DNA of 64,000 nt. Origin: an uncultured Methylococcaceae bacterium. Its GTDB lineage: Bacteria; Pseudomonadota; Gammaproteobacteria; Methylococcales; Methylomonadaceae. Location: assembly GCA_903908165.1 (NCBI GenBank), contig CAIVQX010000009.1, forward strand, positions 24,826 through 88,825. The letters are read 5' to 3'. The notes beneath the pieces were generated by a model. The model worked only from the letters and a program-made list of their open reading frames with translations, had not been told where the DNA came from and did not search any database. Shown in pieces: positions 36,000-48,927 of the stretch (positions are counted from its first letter, which is position 1; each line of letters starts with the position of its first letter). Both the position numbers and the translations under genes were made by a program.

Positions 36000-37109
36000 T
36001 TATATGGTGCCCATTATTGGAATAAAGATATTAATCACGGTATAAGCAATTACGATAATAAAAAAAGATATATGATCTAATGATCGCGATAAGGCGACGT
36101 TATGTCGGATATCAAAAAAATAGAGTGAAACAGCTGACTCTACCAATGTTAAAAAAATTGTGATCATGGCAATATTATTGACTATATCAAGTAACGATAA
36201 ATTGCCGTTATCAGCAACAAATGAAATAGATAATAGTGAATTAGCAATGGCTCCAAAAAAACCACCTACGCCTAGCCCAAATCGAGGGTCTACATCGGTT
36301 GGTTTAATAAAGAAAGCTAATAGTGAGATTGAAACCGCTGCAAATAAGCCAAGAAAAATTTTGAAATAAATACCAAGACCATCACGAGAAATAGTTGCGC
36401 CATAAAGATGTTGCGAAAAGGTTGCGTGATTAGTGCTACTTAGGCGCGGATCGCCAAAGTTTGTTTTATAGGTATGTGGCTTCATTATCAAGCTGTGTTT
36501 AGTCACAACATAGCCTGGTAATTTGACGCGTGAACTGATACTAGAATGTTCAGCATCAGAAACATATTCCAAGTCTTTCCAAGGTAATTTACCATCTTCA
36601 ATGACTATGGATAAAATATGATCATCTACTGGGAAACGCAAGGAGTCGAAATATTTCGTTATCTGTGCTTTTACTAAATATTTCGCATAGTGTTCACCGT
36701 GTTTGTGATATTCACTTAGTTTTTGTTTTGATATAACTTCACCTTCGATAATGTCGAAGGTTTCACCCGGATCAAGATTGTCGTTATCCCATTTAAACCA
36801 TAAGTAAAATTCTGGGCTCCAAGTATTATCTGCAATGGAGATTGAGGCAATATGATCTAAATAGATGCCAACTTTAACTTTACTAGGATTGCTGCCAGCA
36901 GGAAGAAATAATTCGGGTGCTGTGCGACCTACTTCAATCGCTGTAGGATTCATTCGAGCGGCATGTCTGGCTGCACTAGCTGTTTTTAACTGGTCAATTT
37001 TAGTTAGGCTGAATGCGCCTATCACAACAAAAAAAAGGGTAAGTAGAATAGCCCAAATAATAAGAAACTTTCGTCCAGATGGAGATATATTGGGGTTGAT
37101 TAACTGCAT
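36000..37109 (-). CDS. Pentameric ligand-gated ion channel (GLIC/Cys-loop-like) homolog with extra N-terminal TM segment
   Basis: Beta-rich extracellular domain (VGIYLDHIASISIADNTWSPEFYLWFKWDNDNL; KYFDSLRFPVDDHILSIVIED) then ISRDGLGIYFKIFLGLFAAVSISLLAFF and three more TM helices (M1-M4 topology). Confidence 0.7.
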   Translation of the reverse strand: MQLINPNISPSGRKFLIIWAILLTLFFVVIGAFSLTKIDQLKTASAARHAARMNPTAIEVGRTAPELFLPAGSNPSKVKVGIYLDHIASISIADNTWSPEFYLWFKWDNDNLDPGETFDIIEGEVISKQKLSEYHKHGEHYAKYLVKAQITKYFDSLRFPVDDHILSIVIEDGKLPWKDLEYVSDAEHSSISSRVKLPGYVVTKHSLIMKPHTYKTNFGDPRLSSTNHATFSQHLYGATISRDGLGIYFKIFLGLFAAVSISLLAFFIKPTDVDPRFGLGVGGFFGAIANSLLSISFVADNGNLSLLDIVNNIAMITIFLTLVESAVSLYFFDIRHNVALSRSLDHISFFIIVIAYTVINIFIPIMGTI

Positions 37110-37325: not shown

Positions 37326-38159
37326 ATGAAGGAGTATCAAAAAATACTTGGAGCTTGTGAACTAGAGGATTTGGCTTATCAGCGAATCTTGAACTGGCTT
37401 TATGATCAATATGGCATGAGTTACCCAGAAAATAAAAAAAACTTGTTGATTCAACATATAAGTAGAGTTTGTAAGTTTTTTGATATGCCATCACTGGCAG
37501 CCATAGCAGATAGGTTAGAGTTGAATGGTTATAAAGACCTGCAGGATGCAATTGTGCATGCAGCCACGACAAATCATACTTATTTTTTTCGTGAACCTTT
37601 AATACTTAATTATTTTAAAGAAATTATCTTACCAATGCTTCCAAAAGAGGGCGTGCGAATATGGAGTGCAGCAACTTCATTTGGGGATGAAGCATTTACC
37701 TTGGCTATTATAGCTGCAGAAGCAAGAGGATTTATTTGGGCCAAACAAAATCTTGAGATATTAGGTACTGATGTCAGTCGAGTTGTCATTGCTTCTGCAG
37801 CAACAGGTATTTACTCTGAGACGCACGTTGATAAAATGCCAATAGAATTATTGGAGCGATATTTTGTGTATCTTGGCAATGGCCAGTTTCGCGTACAAGA
37901 TGACTTAAGACATATTTGTAAATTTCATTCTTTCAATTTAAAGTCTGAAAACTATTTGTTCCCCAAAGCATTTCATGTCGTATTTTGTCGGAATGTGCTT
38001 TATTATTTTGATCGAGCTCATCAGCGTCATGTCGTTGATGCTATATACAAAGTTACTGAACCAGGCGGTTATTTGGTGACGTGTGTTGCTATGTCAGTAC
38101 GCGATTTAGATTCACGATGGATCTACATTGAGAATGGCATTTATCAGAAGGCTTATTAG
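37326..38159 (+). CDS. cheR: CheR-type chemoreceptor glutamate methyltransferase
   Basis: TNHTYFFREPLILNYF, RIWSAATSFGDEAFTLAI, FHVVFCRNVLYYFD. Confidence 0.9.
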   Translation: MKEYQKILGACELEDLAYQRILNWLYDQYGMSYPENKKNLLIQHISRVCKFFDMPSLAAIADRLELNGYKDLQDAIVHAATTNHTYFFREPLILNYFKEIILPMLPKEGVRIWSAATSFGDEAFTLAIIAAEARGFIWAKQNLEILGTDVSRVVIASAATGIYSETHVDKMPIELLERYFVYLGNGQFRVQDDLRHICKFHSFNLKSENYLFPKAFHVVFCRNVLYYFDRAHQRHVVDAIYKVTEPGGYLVTCVAMSVRDLDSRWIYIENGIYQKAY

Positions 38160-39133
38160 TGGGCTTTTTTAAAAAACCTATTCGTATTGTCATTATCGAT
38201 AGTTCAGAAGAGGGTAGGCGTTTATTAAATGAATTTCTTCAGAGTGATCCACACATTCAAGTCGTAGGTATGGCGGCTAATTTCTATAATGCACGTGATT
38301 TAATTGATGAATTACAGCCGGATGTTATTACTTTAGACGTCGACATACCTCGTATGAATCGTATTACTTTTCTTAAACGGTTCCTGCCGATTCCTAAAGT
38401 GATAATTAATTCAATTAGTCTGCAAGGATCAGCAGAAATGGATAGAGAAATATTCAAACGAATTAAATTAGCAGCTAATCAACATACTAATAAACAGGGT
38501 ATTAGTGAATCATTTGAAGTTAAACACATTTCTGTACCTGATAAAATCAGCGATAAATTAATTGCGATAGGGGCTTCTACGGGTGGGGTAGATGCTTTAT
38601 GTAAAATATTACCCGCATTTCCCGTTCATTGTCCGGGTATTGTTATTGTCCAGCATATGCCGATTGGTTTTACCAGCGCATTAGCCGAACGCTTAAACGA
38701 GCTAAGTAAAATAGCTGTTAAGGAGGCTGAAGACGGCGATATTATTATGCCAGGGAGGGTTTATTTGGCTCCGGGCGGTCTTAGTCATATGAAAGTTGCG
38801 CGTTTTGGTAATCAATATAAGATTAAATTAATTAGAGGCAGTCCTGTTAATCATAGCTGTCCTTCCATAGATGTATTATTTTCATCCGTAGCGTTACATG
38901 TTGGTAGTCATGCATCAGCTGCTATTTTGACAGGTATGGGGAGCGACGGAGCCAAGGGGTTATTGGAGATTCGAAGAGCGGGTGGATTCACGGTTGCTCA
39001 GGATGAAACGACCTCGGTAGTTTTTGGTATGCCGCATATGGCTAATAAATTGGGTGGAGCGAAGTGTGTTGCCGCACTAAATACTATTCCATCGTTACTT
39101 TTTCGTGGTCATATTGGCTCCTTAGTAGATTGA
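38159..39133 (+). CDS. cheB: CheB-type protein-glutamate methylesterase with degenerate receiver domain
   Basis: GASTGG, VQHMP, TGMGSDGAKG esterase motifs; N-terminal receiver-like IRIVIIDSSEEGRRLL...PDVITLDVDIPRMNRITFL. GTG start overlaps the cheR stop. Confidence 0.9.
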   Translation: MGFFKKPIRIVIIDSSEEGRRLLNEFLQSDPHIQVVGMAANFYNARDLIDELQPDVITLDVDIPRMNRITFLKRFLPIPKVIINSISLQGSAEMDREIFKRIKLAANQHTNKQGISESFEVKHISVPDKISDKLIAIGASTGGVDALCKILPAFPVHCPGIVIVQHMPIGFTSALAERLNELSKIAVKEAEDGDIIMPGRVYLAPGGLSHMKVARFGNQYKIKLIRGSPVNHSCPSIDVLFSSVALHVGSHASAAILTGMGSDGAKGLLEIRRAGGFTVAQDETTSVVFGMPHMANKLGGAKCVAALNTIPSLLFRGHIGSLVD

Positions 39134-40804: not shown

Positions 40805-43800
40805 ATGCGTGTTAATGCCAAGTCCAAGATTAATTTGGCTTTCGGGGCTATTGGTGTTCTTTTTATGCTTTTTGCATTTGTATTACTGAATCAAGCTACA
40901 AGAATAAAATGGCATAGCAATGAAATTGAAACCAATTGGTTGCCTGGTATAGTCTCTATTAACACGATTGATTCTGCTATGGGGGAATATCGAGCTGCTG
41001 AAATAGGACATTCCCTCGCTAAAGAAGATATTTCAAAAGTAGAATTTAATCAAAAAATGGTGCTTTTAAAAGAAAAAGTACAGGCAATGAAGGATAAATA
41101 CGAGCCTACAATAAGACCTACATCGGAAATAGAGAGAGCGCTTTATCAGCATTTTATCAAATTATACGATCAGTATATGGTTGCTAGTGAGCAGGTTATT
41201 ACTCTTTCAAAAAATTATGAGCAAGAAAAAGCTATAAAACAAATTACCGATAATAATGGCATTTATAATGATTTACTTGGGTATTTGCAGGAATTGGTTG
41301 AATTGAATGCAAGAGGAGGAGAGACTGAAGGACAAAATGGTAAAAACGTTTTTGAATTTGCCAAAGTACAAATCATTGTTGGCGTTTCAATTATTTCTCT
41401 GGCCTTAATTATTGGCTTTACTTTAAGTAGTGGGTTACATAAGCATCAAGATAGTGAAGCAAGCTCTCGTATAAAAAGAAATACGTTTCTTGCTATTTTA
41501 TTCTTAATTTTATTATGTGCCGTTTATTCAGGTCTTATATATCAGCAACTGGTTAAAGTTGATAAGCAGACTCAAGAGCTTAGTAATAAATGGTTACCAA
41601 GTCTTGTTGTCATTAGTGATATTCGTAATAAAGCCATTAACTATAGAGTGACAGAGTTTTTAACAATTCTGGCGCTCAGTCCAGATGAAAAAACTCAATT
41701 AAAGAGCACCCGTAAGGTGCTTTTTGAAGAGATAAGCAATTCATTGAAAAAGTATTCTCCAATAATTTCGTCCGATTATGAGCGAAATATTTTTGAGCAA
41801 TTTTCCCAGAGCTATGATGAATACACCCTTATCTCAAAGAAAATAGCTGGTTTTGCCGATACAAATGAAACTGATAAAGCACTTAGTGAATCCAATCAGA
41901 GTGTTATTTTGTATGACGATTTTATTAATCTATTAGGTGATTTGCTTCGCTTTAATGAGCGTGGTGGTGTTACTACTAGTTTTAGGAATAATGCAGTCTT
42001 GGATTCAATCAAGGTTATTAGCTTAGGCGGCGTTGCCTTTATTCTTTTATCGCTCATTATTCTCGCTAAATTAACGCAGTCTTGGATTTTGGATGCGAGA
42101 CAAGATAGGACATTTGAAAGTGATGCAGGGGCTACTCTAACTATAAAATTAAAATTACGCTTAGTATTTTTCGGCATGCTATTAGCTTTTATTTTATTCA
42201 GTATGATGATTAATGGATTAATGCAAGTTTTAAACAATAATAGTCATGAAATTGAAGATAACTGGTTGCCTAGTATTATAAAAGTTAATGAAATCAATAA
42301 AATGGTAAGCGATTATCGTGTTGCCGTCACTCGGCATATTTTTGCTACAAATGCAGAAGAAAAATCAGTGTGGGATAAAACCCGTATGCGTTTGAGTAAT
42401 AAAATTGCTTTCGCTAAGATTAATTTCGAAAAATCAATTACAAGCGATTATGAAAATAATCTTTATCAAGATTTTTCTCATTACTACACTGAATACTTAA
42501 AGAAAAGTGAAGTGTTATTGGCTTTGTCAACTAGAAATGAGACGGCAGCAGCCCTAAATGCAATGCAAGCCAATCGCATTAATTTTGATTCCATGACCAT
42601 TAATTTAAATAATTTAGTACGTTTAAATGCTGAAGGTGGAGAGAATGCAGCCCAAATAAATAATCAAGTGTTTGATGTAACCGAACAAATTATTTATGCC
42701 ATTGTGTTGACCATTTTGTTGATTACTATTTTGTTTATGATCATTTTTGACAAAAATATCTCACTCGCTTTAGAGCGACTGACGATTACGGTCAGAAGTT
42801 TAGCCGCTGGTGTTTTAGTCAGCGCTAATGACGATCTTAAAAATCGTCAGGATGAAATTGGGCAAATGGCTAATGCAGTGGATATGGTAAACAAAACACT
42901 GGAAGCATTGAAATCAGATGCCAATGAATTGATTCATGCTGCAGAAGCAGGAATGTTGTCAGTGAGAGTTGATGATGACCGACATCCTGGTGAGTTTAAA
43001 ACAATTGTTGCAGGCATGAATACCCTCATTGATGTATTAAGTAAGCCTTTAGGTGATATTGCGGAAATTATGCAAAATTTAGCTTTAGGTGATTTATCTG
43101 GGCGTATGGAGGGTAATTATGAGGGTGAGCTCTATATTTTAAAAACTAACGTGAATCGCAGTTTAGAAGCTTTGGTTAGTTTATTAACAGAGTTAAGTCA
43201 GACTATGCAATATATGGCTAATAATGATTTATCTCATCAATTGACGGGTAACTATCAGGGCGAATTTTCATTGTTAAAAGCCAGTACTAATCAAACTATT
43301 GGTCATATGATTGAGATATTGCAAGAAATTACGATTAGTACTTCACAATCTGCTGTAGCTATAGCGCAAACATCTGAATCATCTAAGTACGTGGCGGACG
43401 AAGCATCGCAACAGATGTTTGCTATAGAAAACGTGTCTAAAACGATTGATGAAACAGCCGAGTCAGTCGGTGAAATTGCGCAAAAAGCACAAGAAGGCAG
43501 TCAATTGGCATTGAGTACTGCTAATTGTGCTAATGAAGGTCAAGCGCAACTCAATAAATTAAATGATCTCATACAATTAACTGATGATATTACCCGTATA
43601 GCCGATAAAACACATTTATTATCTCTAAATGCAGGCTTGGAGGCTATGCGAGCTGGGGAGTATGGGTTAGGGTTTGGTCTTGTTGCCCAACAAATCGGTA
43701 CGTTAGCAGAAGAAGTGACTGCTTCAGCGCAAAAAATTCGTCTTGGTGTGCATACCCTACAAGATACGCAAGCAGCCATGAAACAAATTGCACAAGCTGC

Positions 43801-44017
43801 CCAAGTGAGCGAAGTCAATGTGCAGAGTATTTCAGTGGCAATAGTTCAACAATCTTCAGCCGTTAAGACAATCACTGAACGAGTCAATGAGCTTCGTATC
43901 AGTAGTGGAGCGACGGCATCAGCAGCTGAAGAAATTAGCTCAACTATGAATCATTTAGCGCAAACCGTTAAAGAAACGGCTGATAAGGTAAAGCGTTTTA
44001 AATTGACTGAAAGTTAA
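40805..44017 (+). CDS. Giant methyl-accepting chemotaxis protein: three tandem TM-4HB-TM modules, poly-HAMP, MCP signal domain
   Basis: Three TM pairs, each enclosing a WLP-containing four-helix-bundle-like segment; HAMP-like repeats; IADKTHLLSLNAGLEAMRAGEYGLGFGLVAQQIGTLAEEV signalling tip. Confidence 0.9.
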   Translation: MRVNAKSKINLAFGAIGVLFMLFAFVLLNQATRIKWHSNEIETNWLPGIVSINTIDSAMGEYRAAEIGHSLAKEDISKVEFNQKMVLLKEKVQAMKDKYEPTIRPTSEIERALYQHFIKLYDQYMVASEQVITLSKNYEQEKAIKQITDNNGIYNDLLGYLQELVELNARGGETEGQNGKNVFEFAKVQIIVGVSIISLALIIGFTLSSGLHKHQDSEASSRIKRNTFLAILFLILLCAVYSGLIYQQLVKVDKQTQELSNKWLPSLVVISDIRNKAINYRVTEFLTILALSPDEKTQLKSTRKVLFEEISNSLKKYSPIISSDYERNIFEQFSQSYDEYTLISKKIAGFADTNETDKALSESNQSVILYDDFINLLGDLLRFNERGGVTTSFRNNAVLDSIKVISLGGVAFILLSLIILAKLTQSWILDARQDRTFESDAGATLTIKLKLRLVFFGMLLAFILFSMMINGLMQVLNNNSHEIEDNWLPSIIKVNEINKMVSDYRVAVTRHIFATNAEEKSVWDKTRMRLSNKIAFAKINFEKSITSDYENNLYQDFSHYYTEYLKKSEVLLALSTRNETAAALNAMQANRINFDSMTINLNNLVRLNAEGGENAAQINNQVFDVTEQIIYAIVLTILLITILFMIIFDKNISLALERLTITVRSLAAGVLVSANDDLKNRQDEIGQMANAVDMVNKTLEALKSDANELIHAAEAGMLSVRVDDDRHPGEFKTIVAGMNTLIDVLSKPLGDIAEIMQNLALGDLSGRMEGNYEGELYILKTNVNRSLEALVSLLTELSQTMQYMANNDLSHQLTGNYQGEFSLLKASTNQTIGHMIEILQEITISTSQSAVAIAQTSESSKYVADEASQQMFAIENVSKTIDETAESVGEIAQKAQEGSQLALSTANCANEGQAQLNKLNDLIQLTDDITRIADKTHLLSLNAGLEAMRAGEYGLGFGLVAQQIGTLAEEVTASAQKIRLGVHTLQDTQAAMKQIAQAAQVSEVNVQSISVAIVQQSSAVKTITERVNELRISSGATASAAEEISSTMNHLAQTVKETADKVKRFKLTES

Positions 44018-44069
44018 AATTAATTCACTTGTGTGCCTTTCTATACAAGTGGAACATTGTGTTTAGTTA

Positions 44070-47000
44070 TTGTCTATAACAGTTAAAGCGAATAATAAGT
44101 GGGACATTCATATGAATATGGCTAGCAAAAAGAATATCTATCTAATTTTCGGGGCATTGATGGCCCTTTTGGTGTTATTTGCTTTTGTGTTAGTGAATCA
44201 AGCCGTAAGAATTAAATGGCATAGCACTGAAATTGAGACTAATTGGTTGCCTAGTATTGAGGCTATAAATGCTATGCAATCAGCGGTTGGTAATGTTCGA
44301 TCTAATGTAGTTGGACATATCTTAGCTAATGATGAATCTTTAAAAGCTGAATATGCGCAAAAGATCACAGGTTTTGATAAAGGATTTATAGAAGGGAAAG
44401 CAAAGTACATACTTAGAGTTGATGCACTAAAGGAAAAAGCGCTCTGGAAGCAGTATATCGAGAATTATGATGATTATATGGCGGCCACTAAGCAGGTTAT
44501 AGCCATGTCACAAAATAATGAAAAGGAAAAAGCGCTCAATCAAATTAAAATCAATCAAGATCTTTACGCTAGTGTAATTGAATATGCACAATTGTTAGTT
44601 GATTTAAATTATGGCGCAGCTTATGAGGAAGCTAAAACGGGTAATCAAGTCTATGAGAGCGCAAAAATAGAATTAATTGCGGGTCTTATTATTATTTTGA
44701 GCAGTTTTATAGTCATAGCGTTTTCATTGAGTAATGGGTCGATAGCACAGCAAGATAATCATGCAGTGTCGAAAATCAAAAAAAATATTTTGCTCACTTT
44801 TTTAATATTAAGTTTAGCAATCATTGTCTATGTTTTTATTAATTATCAACAACTTAATAGGGTTAATGAGCAAATTAATCAGCTCAAGAATAAATGGTTG
44901 CCGAGTATTGAGATGATTGATGGGATTAGTAATAAAACAATTTCTTATGAAATTTTTCAGAAGTTATCTCTTGTTACTACCAATTTAGATGAAAAATTAC
45001 AGCTAGAAAACAGTCGTAAATTGATTGCTGAAGATGTTGATAAATTACGAAAGAAATTTTCAAATTTGATTTCAACAGATCTTGAGCGTGATCTGTATGA
45101 CCAATTTTCCGTGAGTTTCGATGAGTATGCTCTACTGAGTCAGGAAATAGAGGAGTTAGCTCATCACAACGAAATCGATAAGGCTCTGATTGAAGAAAAA
45201 CAGAGTGTTATTTTGAAGAATGATTTTTCTGAGAAATTAGCCGAGTTATTTCGTTTGAATGAACGTGGCAGTATTGCCACCAGTTCCAAAAACGATGCAA
45301 CTTTAGAATCATTAAAAACTTTCAACTTGGGTGGAGTAACTCTTCTGGTTTTAATGCTGACTATAGCGGCCCAACTATTACAGTTTTGGTTGCTAGATGA
45401 GGGTCATGAAGACAAGTTTGAAGGAAAAACGGGTTTTACATTAACTATAAAGCTCAAGTTGCGTCTGGTATTTTTTGGAATATTATCCGCTTTTATTTTA
45501 TTTAGTCTATTAATCAATGGCTTAATGCAAGAGTTGAATGACGGTACAAACAAAATTGAAAAAAATTGGTTGCCTAATATCATTAAAGTTAATGAAATCA
45601 ATAAAATGGTGAGCGATTATCGTGTTGCCATTATTCGGTATGTTTTTGCTACAGAAGCTGAAGAAAAACTCTATTGGGATAAAACCCGTAAGAATCTGAT
45701 TAAAAAAATTACTTATTCAAAAGCCAATTATGAAGCCTCTATTACCAGTGATCTAGAGAATAATATCTATCAAGATTTTGCTCATAATTACGCAGACTAT
45801 GTCAAGAAAAGTGAAGTAATGTTGGCTCTATCAAGTAGAAATGAGACGGCAACTGCTCTTAAAGTATTACGAGCTAACAGTCTTAACTTTAATGATATGA
45901 CAGGTCATCTAGAGAAATTAGTGCGGTTGAATTCTGAAGGTGGCGTGGATGCTGCTCAGCTTAACAATCAGTTATTTAAATTATCACAACAAATCATTTA
46001 TGTGGTTGTGTTGATTATTTTGATGATCACCATTTTGTTTATGATCATTTTTGATAAAAACATATCCTTAGCAATTCAGCGATTGACTAGTTCTGTAAGA
46101 AGTTTAGCGGCTGGTGTGCTAGTGAGTGGTAATACGGATCTTAAAGAACGTCAAGATGAAATTGGTCAAATGGCGAATGCAGTAGATATGGTAAAAGAAA
46201 CCATACAAGCACTAACGATAGATGCGACTGAATTAATTCACACAGCAGAAGACAGTTTAGACTCAAGCCTTTCAGGTATGTCAGCCGCAAGAATTGATAA
46301 TGATCGACATCCGGGAGAGTTTAAAAAAATAGTTTTAGGGATGAATAACTTAATTGATTTAATGAGTAAACCACTGAGTGGTATTGCTGAAATCATGCAA
46401 AATTTGGCTTTAGGTGATTTATCAGGGCGTATGCAAGGGGATTATGCTGGTGAGTTACATACATTAAAAGCTAATGTTAATCGTAGCTTAGATGGGCTGG
46501 TTGGTTTATTAACAGAGTTAAGTCAAACCCTGCAGTATATGGCTAATAATGATCTAACTCATCAATTGACAGGTAATTATCAGGGTGAGTTTTCATTATT
46601 AAAAGCCAGTACCAATCAAGCCATTGGACATATGGTTGAGATATTACAAGAAATTACCATTAGTACTTCGCAATCTGCAGTGGCCATAGCTCAAACATCT
46701 GAATCATCTAAGTACGTAGCAGATGAAGCATCACAACAGATGTTAGCTATAGAAAATGTGTCTAAAACGATTGATGATACAGCTGATTCAGTTGGTGAAA
46801 TTGCACGAAAAGCTCAGGAAGGTAGTCAGTTAGCTTGTAGCACTGCTAATTTTGCTAATGATGGGCAAATACAGCTGAACAAGCTAATTGAATTAATTCA
46901 ACATATAGATGCTGAATATGTCAGGATTGAAAAAATAACTGATGAAATAACCCGTATAGCTGATAAAACACATTTATTATCTTTAAATGCCGGTCTAGAA

Positions 47001-47408
47001 GCGATGCGTGCCGGTGATTATGGTCTTGGTTTTGGATTTGTTGCTCAGCAAATTGGCGCCTTAGCAGAAGAAGTGACTTCTTCTGCTAATAGTATTGGTA
47101 CTGTGATTAATAGTTCTGGGCAAAAAATTCGTCTTGGCGTACATGCAATGCAAGAAACTCAAGCAGTAATGGCGAAAATTGCCCAAGCAGCTGAGGCTAG
47201 TGAAATTAATGTTCAAAGTATTTCAGTTGCAATAGTTCAACAATCGTCAGCCGTTAAAACAATCACTGAACGAGTCAATGAACTTCGTGTGAGCAGTGGA
47301 GCGACAGCCTCAGCAGCTGAAGAAATTAGCTCAACTATGAATCATTTAGCGCAAACCGTTAAAGAAACGGCTGACAAGGTAAAACGTTTCAAGTTGAATG
47401 AAAATTAA
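44070..47408 (+). CDS. Giant methyl-accepting chemotaxis protein, paralog of the upstream MCP
   Basis: Same architecture and nearly identical signalling C-terminus; starts in the spacer after the first MCP (ATG 44112 is an alternative start). Confidence 0.9.
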   Translation: MSITVKANNKWDIHMNMASKKNIYLIFGALMALLVLFAFVLVNQAVRIKWHSTEIETNWLPSIEAINAMQSAVGNVRSNVVGHILANDESLKAEYAQKITGFDKGFIEGKAKYILRVDALKEKALWKQYIENYDDYMAATKQVIAMSQNNEKEKALNQIKINQDLYASVIEYAQLLVDLNYGAAYEEAKTGNQVYESAKIELIAGLIIILSSFIVIAFSLSNGSIAQQDNHAVSKIKKNILLTFLILSLAIIVYVFINYQQLNRVNEQINQLKNKWLPSIEMIDGISNKTISYEIFQKLSLVTTNLDEKLQLENSRKLIAEDVDKLRKKFSNLISTDLERDLYDQFSVSFDEYALLSQEIEELAHHNEIDKALIEEKQSVILKNDFSEKLAELFRLNERGSIATSSKNDATLESLKTFNLGGVTLLVLMLTIAAQLLQFWLLDEGHEDKFEGKTGFTLTIKLKLRLVFFGILSAFILFSLLINGLMQELNDGTNKIEKNWLPNIIKVNEINKMVSDYRVAIIRYVFATEAEEKLYWDKTRKNLIKKITYSKANYEASITSDLENNIYQDFAHNYADYVKKSEVMLALSSRNETATALKVLRANSLNFNDMTGHLEKLVRLNSEGGVDAAQLNNQLFKLSQQIIYVVVLIILMITILFMIIFDKNISLAIQRLTSSVRSLAAGVLVSGNTDLKERQDEIGQMANAVDMVKETIQALTIDATELIHTAEDSLDSSLSGMSAARIDNDRHPGEFKKIVLGMNNLIDLMSKPLSGIAEIMQNLALGDLSGRMQGDYAGELHTLKANVNRSLDGLVGLLTELSQTLQYMANNDLTHQLTGNYQGEFSLLKASTNQAIGHMVEILQEITISTSQSAVAIAQTSESSKYVADEASQQMLAIENVSKTIDDTADSVGEIARKAQEGSQLACSTANFANDGQIQLNKLIELIQHIDAEYVRIEKITDEITRIADKTHLLSLNAGLEAMRAGDYGLGFGFVAQQIGALAEEVTSSANSIGTVINSSGQKIRLGVHAMQETQAVMAKIAQAAEASEINVQSISVAIVQQSSAVKTITERVNELRVSSGATASAAEEISSTMNHLAQTVKETADKVKRFKLNEN

Positions 47409-47409
47409 G

Positions 47410-48927
47410 ATGAGTGCAGAAAATAATCAATCAGTATCTTTATTTAGAAAACTTGCAATACCCTTTTTATTAAGCGGGGTATTGGGCTTAGCTATTTTCT
47501 ATAGTAGTGAAGCCAATAAAGTGATGGGCTTGGCGGCATTACAAGACGCCATTATTGTAGTTGGTTATGGGCTAAGTATCGCTGAAATTCTTGTTATTTC
47601 AGTATTGTTAAGGCGTATTATTCAGTATTTTATTCTTGATCGTTTAATTTCCCCAGCATTAGGTACACCGACACCTCGACTACTTTCGCAAATGGTTACG
47701 GTGGTCATCTATACCTTGGCTATTGCGGCGGTTGTCAGTATTGTTTTTAAAAAAGATCTCACTGTCTTTTTGGCTACCTTCGGTGGTGCAAGTATTGTCA
47801 TCGGACTCGCCTTGCAAACGATGATTAAGGATTTATTTGCAGGTCTGACCATTAATTTGGATCGCTCTGTGAATATAGGCGATCATATCAAGCTTAATAG
47901 TAGAAGCAATAGTGGTAATCTTGAAATTATTGAAGGGGAGGTTTTAGAAATTCACTGGAGAGCACTTCAACTGATTGATTCCAAAGGTAATATAGTGCTT
48001 GTACCTAATAATAAGATTTATGATCAAATTATCACAAATTATTCTAAACCTCAGACGTTTTATCGAATCGATATACCTATTTTTTTAAATGTAGAGGTAC
48101 CTATTGATCAAGCCTTGCGTATTCTAAAAACGGCGGCTCTTGAAGCCTCACCAAAGTTTTCACCAGAAAATGCGCCGGTGCCTTTTGTGAGAATAAATCA
48201 GATAACACTCCATGGGGTTGAATATTTTGTCCATGTATATCCCACTTTTGCATCACGTGACAATGCCAGAGATTTGGTTCAGCAAAATGTATTGCGTTAT
48301 TTAAATTATGCCAAATTAGCGCCAGCCCTAGAAAAAGTAGAAGAGCATGCGCCCGCTACGGTTATTAATAAGATGCAGCACATAGCTAATTTATTGGGTG
48401 CTATAGATATATTTCAAGATTTATTTGTGCCTGACTTAGATTTATTAGCTAACTTAGCGCAATTGAAGTCTTTATCTGCAGGGATAGTGGTGGCACAAGG
48501 TGGTGAGATAGCAAATAGTTTATTTTTGGTTATTGAAGGATTATTAGAGCCTGAAGATTGGCGAAAAAAAGATACTAAGAACTCGGTTGCTAAATTTATA
48601 ATAGGGCCTGGTACTTTAATCAATGCAACCACCTTAATTGCTGGCGGTGTTTGTGAGTCAACTATTCGAACGAAGAGTTCAGTGCTTCTTTATGAAATTA
48701 GTTACTCAGCTATTGAGCAATTATTTTTACAAAATCCTCAAAGTGCCAGTTATTTGAGTCTTCGTGTAGCCGAACGATTAAGGAGTAATTTTGCTGATAA
48801 TAATGCGGGTTATAAGCAACTCGGTATTGAAAGTAATGTTGATGAATTATATGAAAAAGTTTTTAAAAATTTACGTCGATTATATGCACATTTAAGATTG
48901 GTTGATATTACTAGCGACGCCGGTTAG
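47410..48927 (+). CDS. MscS-family mechanosensitive channel with C-terminal cyclic-nucleotide-binding-like domain
   Basis: MscS core FLATFGGASIVIGLALQTMIKDLFAGLTINLDRSVNIGDHI; C-terminal CNB-like AGIVVAQGGEIANSLFLVIEGLLE...GPGTLINATTLIAGG. Confidence 0.85.
   Translation: MSAENNQSVSLFRKLAIPFLLSGVLGLAIFYSSEANKVMGLAALQDAIIVVGYGLSIAEILVISVLLRRIIQYFILDRLISPALGTPTPRLLSQMVTVVIYTLAIAAVVSIVFKKDLTVFLATFGGASIVIGLALQTMIKDLFAGLTINLDRSVNIGDHIKLNSRSNSGNLEIIEGEVLEIHWRALQLIDSKGNIVLVPNNKIYDQIITNYSKPQTFYRIDIPIFLNVEVPIDQALRILKTAALEASPKFSPENAPVPFVRINQITLHGVEYFVHVYPTFASRDNARDLVQQNVLRYLNYAKLAPALEKVEEHAPATVINKMQHIANLLGAIDIFQDLFVPDLDLLANLAQLKSLSAGIVVAQGGEIANSLFLVIEGLLEPEDWRKKDTKNSVAKFIIGPGTLINATTLIAGGVCESTIRTKSSVLLYEISYSAIEQLFLQNPQSASYLSLRVAERLRSNFADNNAGYKQLGIESNVDELYEKVFKNLRRLYAHLRLVDITSDAG

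Follow-up and report, generated by a model that had tools for sequence, protein, structure and literature searches.

A single receptor chain with three sensors raises the question of whether such an architecture is real, how it came about and which output it would serve. Work on how a four-helix bundle (4HB) sensor transfers a signal through the membrane has mostly dealt with receptors that have a single bundle and two transmembrane (TM) helices. The present case comes from a freshwater methane-eating bacterium, in which two triple-sensor chemoreceptors are encoded side by side in the window, that is, the whole stretch of 64,000 nucleotides that was analysed. For the first of them, MCP1, the sequence-only reading had proposed three consecutive TM-4HB-TM modules over positions 40832-42753, which correspond to residues 10-649.

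The TM helices, here and throughout, were called by hydropathy (19-residue Kyte-Doolittle, threshold 1.5), and exactly six peaks of MCP1 exceed 1.5, as many as had been proposed. Whole-protein Pfam searches gave three PF12729 stretches in each of MCP1 and MCP2, together with HAMP, HAMP_2 and MCPsignal. In detail, the six segments of the two proteins scored 55-71 bits when scanned separately, against a gathering score of 27, and those of MCP1 (E = 5e-17, 2e-19 and 1e-14) span nearly the whole profile. The proposed kinship among the segments is also borne out, as the modules of MCP1 share 27-30% identity with each other and find each other by BLASTP at E = 1e-24 to 3e-29. The W-L-P, YR and LNxxGG-like elements lie where they had been placed in all three segments; WLP and YR do not distinguish these sensors, because W-[LM]-P and YR are also found in single-4HB receptors, and WLP even in a 4HB GGDEF/EAL protein.

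MCP1 therefore departs from the canonical topology of two TM helices around one periplasmic domain, having six helices and three sensors. The linkers between its modules are of about 18 and about 30 residues and contain no HAMP. Since the six TM helices alternate and the signalling domain is cytoplasmic, all three bundles would be periplasmic. The remaining part of the protein is that of an MCP: PF00015 lies above its cut-off of 34.6 (65 bits in MCP1, 75 bits in MCP2) and HAMP follows the last TM helix, with PF00672 in two stretches and PF18947 in two (best 726-786). A C-terminal site resembling the methylation consensus (ASAAEEISST and variants) is kept in every receptor of the locus, and the CheR and CheB genes are adjacent.

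Table. Features of the receptor locus, with positions counted in the window
Feature	Positions	Strand	Basis
CheR methyltransferase	37326..38159	+	PF01739 2.7e-39
CheB, REC + methylesterase	38159..39133	+	PF01339 6.8e-59
Multi-CheW adaptor, 484 aa	39300..40754	+	PF01584 in 2 stretches; two CheW domains by Pfam
MCP1	40805..44017	+	ORF, 1070 aa; three TM-4HB-TM modules, tandem HAMPs, MCP signalling domain
MCP1 module 1	40829..41428	+	TM1 residues 9-27, 4HB, TM2 190-208; PF12729 E=5.4e-17
MCP1 module 2	41483..42064	+	TM3 227-245, 4HB, TM4 402-420; PF12729 E=1.6e-19
MCP1 module 3, HAMP-proximal	42155..42745	+	TM5 451-469, 4HB, TM6 629-647; PF12729 E=9.5e-15
MCP1 HAMP, then HAMP_2-type repeat region	42752..43162 (start approximate)	+	PF00672 + PF18947
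MCP1 MCP signalling domain	43490..43975	+	PF00015 8e-18
MCP2, second triple-4HB chemoreceptor	44112..47408	+	1098 aa from ATG at 44112
MscS-type channel with C-terminal CNB-type domain	47398..48927	+	PF00924, PF00027

The AF2 model of the MCP1 sensor (residues 1-655), which was built from nine homologues and reached a pLDDT of 80 with a pTM of only 0.62, shows three repeats of a TM-helix, two further helices and a helix-TM. The predicted helices cover residues 2-71, 75-102, 108-136 and 140-214 in module 1, residues 217-288, 293-320, 324-352 and 356-436 in module 2, and residues 447-513, 517-542, 548-576 and 580-652 in module 3, with nothing other than short breaks between the units. Foldseek matched the model to the ligand-binding domains (LBDs) of MCP2201 (TM-score by target up to 0.88) and Vc1313 (0.92), both with probability 1.00, the E-values being weak for the whole 655-residue model. 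The three segments are thus predicted to adopt the four-helix bundle fold, in agreement with the sequence-only reading.

MCP2, which that reading had not included, has the same six TM helices and three 4HBs and is 65% identical to MCP1 overall. The shared triple architecture makes the two receptors a paralogous pair. Their modules have not diverged equally, with identities of 43% for module 1, 46% for module 2 and 69% for module 3. Modules 1 and 2 of MCP2 are closer to the MCP1-type receptor of genome G010 than to MCP1, and the module 3s of MCP1 and MCP2 are sisters. This mosaic of modules across 40805-47408 suggests recombination between the paralogues. A scan for promoters and terminators gave fewer promoter-like sites than shuffled sequences did.

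The two receptors also differ in their signalling hairpins. Compared with MCP2, MCP1 is missing 11 residues from each arm, between residues 924/925 and 975/976 (positions 43577 and 43730), so that the two gaps face each other approximately across the tip. The shortening is common to MCP1, one receptor of G010 (G010a) and that of G030, and these three group together in the tree (94/97). The residues are kept in MCP2, in the second receptor of G010 (G010b), in the other copies of the family and in single, double and triple forms of another family. The length classes of MCPs are as a rule set apart by complete heptads, which makes a change of 11+11 residues unusual, and two receptors of unequal hairpin length beside one CheA are worth attention.

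The search for further six-TM, triple-4HB receptors, which the sequence-only reading had called for, was positive. Among 237 genomes of the family, a profile of the sensor region identified ten copies in 8, belonging to three genera; one more copy is present in G1059, from a distant gammaproteobacterial family. The copy of G232 is split over two contigs and stands outside the nine complete family copies, which all have six TM helices; in the eight that were submitted to Pfam, three 4HB stretches were matched per protein. Methylococcaceae MAGs, several of them from lakes, are the closest relatives that carry these genes. Profile matches in G155 and G174 are single sensors in shorter frames and were not counted. 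Similarly, G018, at first a candidate for a broken triple receptor with a stop inside the match, has at this locus an uninterrupted ORF of 463 aa with one sensor region, at the N-terminus. As a control, a profile of this type was run over 399 Pseudomonadota genomes; it returned many single-4HB receptors, mostly in frames of 540-680 aa with one match each, and no other tandem.

This recurrence rules out a fusion or tandem collapse in metagenome assembly, to which a 210-contig assembly might be thought prone. Independent assemblies from several lakes share the six-TM architecture, and the modules have diverged and are far too unlike each other for a repeat error. The chance of such an artefact is therefore negligible.

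The number of modules is variable among relatives of the locus. The class-wide search detected a double version in G452, a member of another family, with 914 aa, two 4HBs and four TM helices. In a search of the taxonomic order to which G452 belongs, G1058 and G1040 showed one module each, G1054 two, with an interruption, and G1059 three, with six TM helices; a still more distant relative, G507, has one. A single genus includes both single- and triple-module receptors. The double receptor of G1054 (L126:3736-6622) is broken between modules 1 and 2 into two ORFs, by either mutation or sequencing error. The gene order shared by these loci is a multi-CheW gene, the receptor and an MscS-type channel with a CNB-type domain. 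The exceptions are G229, without an adjoining CheW, G232, where the contig begins inside the receptor, G507, where the CheW-like ORF is weak, and G010, where the channel lies between the two receptors.

In the maximum-likelihood tree, the modules cluster by position across genera. The triplication thus either predates the split of these genera or was passed among them as one block. The Methylococcaceae module 3s include that of G1059 in their group (97/96) and the respective signalling parts also group (94/92), pointing to a triple form that probably arose once and was transferred between families. In G452, the HAMP-proximal module has the single module of G1058 as its sister (99/96), and in the signalling tree the doubles sit with G1058, so that the double form probably arose separately. 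By these groupings of HAMP-proximal modules and signalling parts, in a tree that does not resolve the deep branching of modules 1 and 2 or that of G507, the HAMP-proximal module is most likely the original one, to which the upstream modules were added. Over the nine copies, the mean identity is 55% for module 3 and 43% for modules 1 and 2; the modules upstream of the HAMP-proximal one look added and seem to diversify faster.

From these observations, a mechanism is proposed which, together with the CheA partnership and the non-flagellar output discussed below, we judge to have a slightly better than even chance of being right as a whole. A sensory unit including both membrane helices would have been multiplied to three in MCP1 and MCP2. 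Module 3 would be the original transducing 4HB; its TM6 leads straight into HAMP, and the module would move the signalling hairpin in the usual manner. Modules 1 and 2, added upstream and joined solely by short cytoplasmic loops without HAMP, would supply additional periplasmic inputs that evolve faster and act laterally on module 3, biasing it by bundle or TM packing, and in this way a single receptor could integrate several cues. Both receptors would report via the multi-CheW adaptor to the single CheA and would be adapted by the neighbouring CheR and CheB.

The conservation pattern could be read differently. If modules 1 and 2 were near-neutral passengers of the duplication and module 3 alone sensed, the stronger conservation of module 3 and the range of one to three modules among close relatives would fit. 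However, the nine complete family copies, from three genera, all retain the three modules as open frames, each module grouping by its position, and both paralogues retain theirs, which is unlikely without selection; we regard the passenger reading as improbable. A somewhat stronger contender, still an unlikely one, is an intramolecular pseudo-dimer, in which modules 1 and 2 pair within the chain as an accessory bundle, either structural or binding a periplasmic partner, and module 3 alone pairs across the homodimer. It is in line with the similar divergence of modules 1 and 2, both less conserved than module 3, and with GlnX, whose two membrane-anchored 4HBs in one chain were modelled as a Tar-like dimer (PMC9769921). 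Against it, the single-module relatives at the same locus have no intrachain partner. Lateral input from modules 1 and 2 to module 3 is the preferred reading.

The genes for CheR, CheB and the multi-CheW adaptor lie upstream of MCP1 on the same strand. A third CheW domain in the C-terminal third of the adaptor was considered and dropped, as hhalign gave no support (probability about 1%), although Pfam matched three stretches in one orthologue (L026). On the minus strand, at 36000-37109 and divergent from the CheR gene, lies the gene for a membrane protein that resembles pentameric ligand-gated ion channels. It had no Pfam match, phmmer related it to the GLIC/GlyR chimera 4x5t (E 4e-4) and its AF2 model had a pLDDT of 37. 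A gene for a 78% identical protein is likewise divergent from CheR in G010.

Downstream of the receptors lies the MscS-type channel. Bacterial MscS-family channels with cyclic-nucleotide-binding domains go by the name of bCNG (cited in PMC4560390), and the receptor-linked channel resembles them in combining an MscS pore with a CNB domain (PF00924 and PF00027). It differs in its cassette, since its CNB domain is without the G-E and the R of the cyclic-nucleotide cassette (GPGTLINATTLIAGGVCESTIRTKS) and thus without the canonical phosphate-binding cassette of a bCNG member, whereas a second channel, linked to CheA, has the canonical cassette (FLGEMGLMTGAPRSATVIAK), in which G-E and R are present (GEMGLMTGAPRSATV). 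The idea that cAMP gates the receptor-adjacent channel is weakened by this degeneracy, and cAMP gating fits the CheA-adjacent channel only.

The locus could on these grounds be mainly a receptor-plus-channel unit, in which the MCP/CheW complex gates the adjacent channel directly, the CNB-type domain being proposed as a docking site for a protein or other ligand, and signalling through CheA is secondary. An MscS-type channel stands beside a receptor in 14 of 14 loci, from several families, and is more constant there than CheR and CheB; its degenerate cassette, against the canonical one of the CheA-adjacent channel, points the same way. Against this, the MCP tip is intact and CheR and CheB are present, which favours normal coupling to CheA, and we consider direct gating unlikely as the main function.

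Coupling to CheA, as preferred here, is consistent with the gene content of the genome, a 99%-complete MAG of 2.78 Mb in 210 contigs, which was assessed by family searches. Apart from MCP1 and MCP2, no MCP was found in it, and CheA gave one match, on contig C54 and not on the contig of the receptors; an assembly gap could hold another MCP or hide a second CheA. The CheA contig (operon L020:1391-11661) carries, in order, the divergent MscS-CNBD channel with the canonical cassette, a CheA with REC, a CheW, a protein that matches dCache and has no TM helix, a REC-REC class III cyclase and a PDE-like protein whose match is weak. The same order is found in G010, over two contigs. FliF was not found in the genome of the window, G010 or G452, and each of the ten genomes tested carries PilT-family ATPases.

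The single CheA would on this evidence be the kinase of the receptors. With no other MCP, one CheA beside a REC-REC cyclase and an MscS-CNBD channel, and no FliF, the output is likely to be non-flagellar. The adenylate cyclase and the canonical channel of the operon suggest that it is perhaps cAMP and/or ion flux, and type IV pili are another possible target. Most kin with the triple receptor (G030, G125, G220, G229, G230 and G232) do possess FliF and gave several CheA-like matches, and in these the CheA partnership could differ. The genome of the window would then represent a small and isolated case of probable non-flagellar chemosensory signalling. More tentatively, and with doubt about the claim as a whole, the input of this receptor type may be widened by stacking membrane-anchored 4HB modules, one to three per chain at the same locus, and the receptors may feed, in a methanotroph in which no flagellum was detected, one chemosensory array that acts on cAMP and MscS-family ion channels in place of swimming.

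Among known systems, the Chp-type system of Pseudomonas aeruginosa, which controls cAMP, likewise links a chemosensory CheA to adenylate cyclase and to type IV pili. The present system differs in the REC-REC cyclase within the CheA operon, the triple-4HB MCPs and the linked MscS-CNBD channels. An MscS channel linked to a chemoreceptor or CheA was not found in the open-access papers searched. Single-4HB chemoreceptors, either of the 4HB_MCP_1 type (e.g., MCP2201) or of the TarH type (e.g., Tar and Tsr), share the sensor fold, HAMP and signalling hairpin with MCP1 and MCP2, but they have one periplasmic bundle and two TM helices in place of three and six. Homologous receptors with one, two or three bundles before the same HAMP and signalling part, at the same locus, are a natural test series. 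With them it can be asked if pairing of the bundles is required, if an odd number of them is functional, and if a HAMP can be driven by upstream modules that are not joined to it.

HBM-type receptors also have more than one helical bundle per chain; in these the second bundle is an insertion within the first, and TM helices are attached to just one of the two (PMC9769921), whereas each bundle of MCP1 and MCP2 has its own two. In the open-access papers searched, there was no chemoreceptor with tandem membrane-anchored 4HBs and no protein of any kind with three; subscription papers may contain precedents. The closest and sole precedent found there is GlnX of Corynebacterium glutamicum, which is linked to PknG/OdhI signalling and has a helical tandem module of two membrane-anchored 4HBs with four TM helices, attributed to the duplication of a 4HB along with its two membrane anchors; its authors were aware of no other protein so arranged (PMC9769921). 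MCP1 and MCP2 share with GlnX the tandem of 4HBs in one chain, each with its own two TM helices, but GlnX has two modules and is not an MCP, whereas here three modules are placed in a chemoreceptor.
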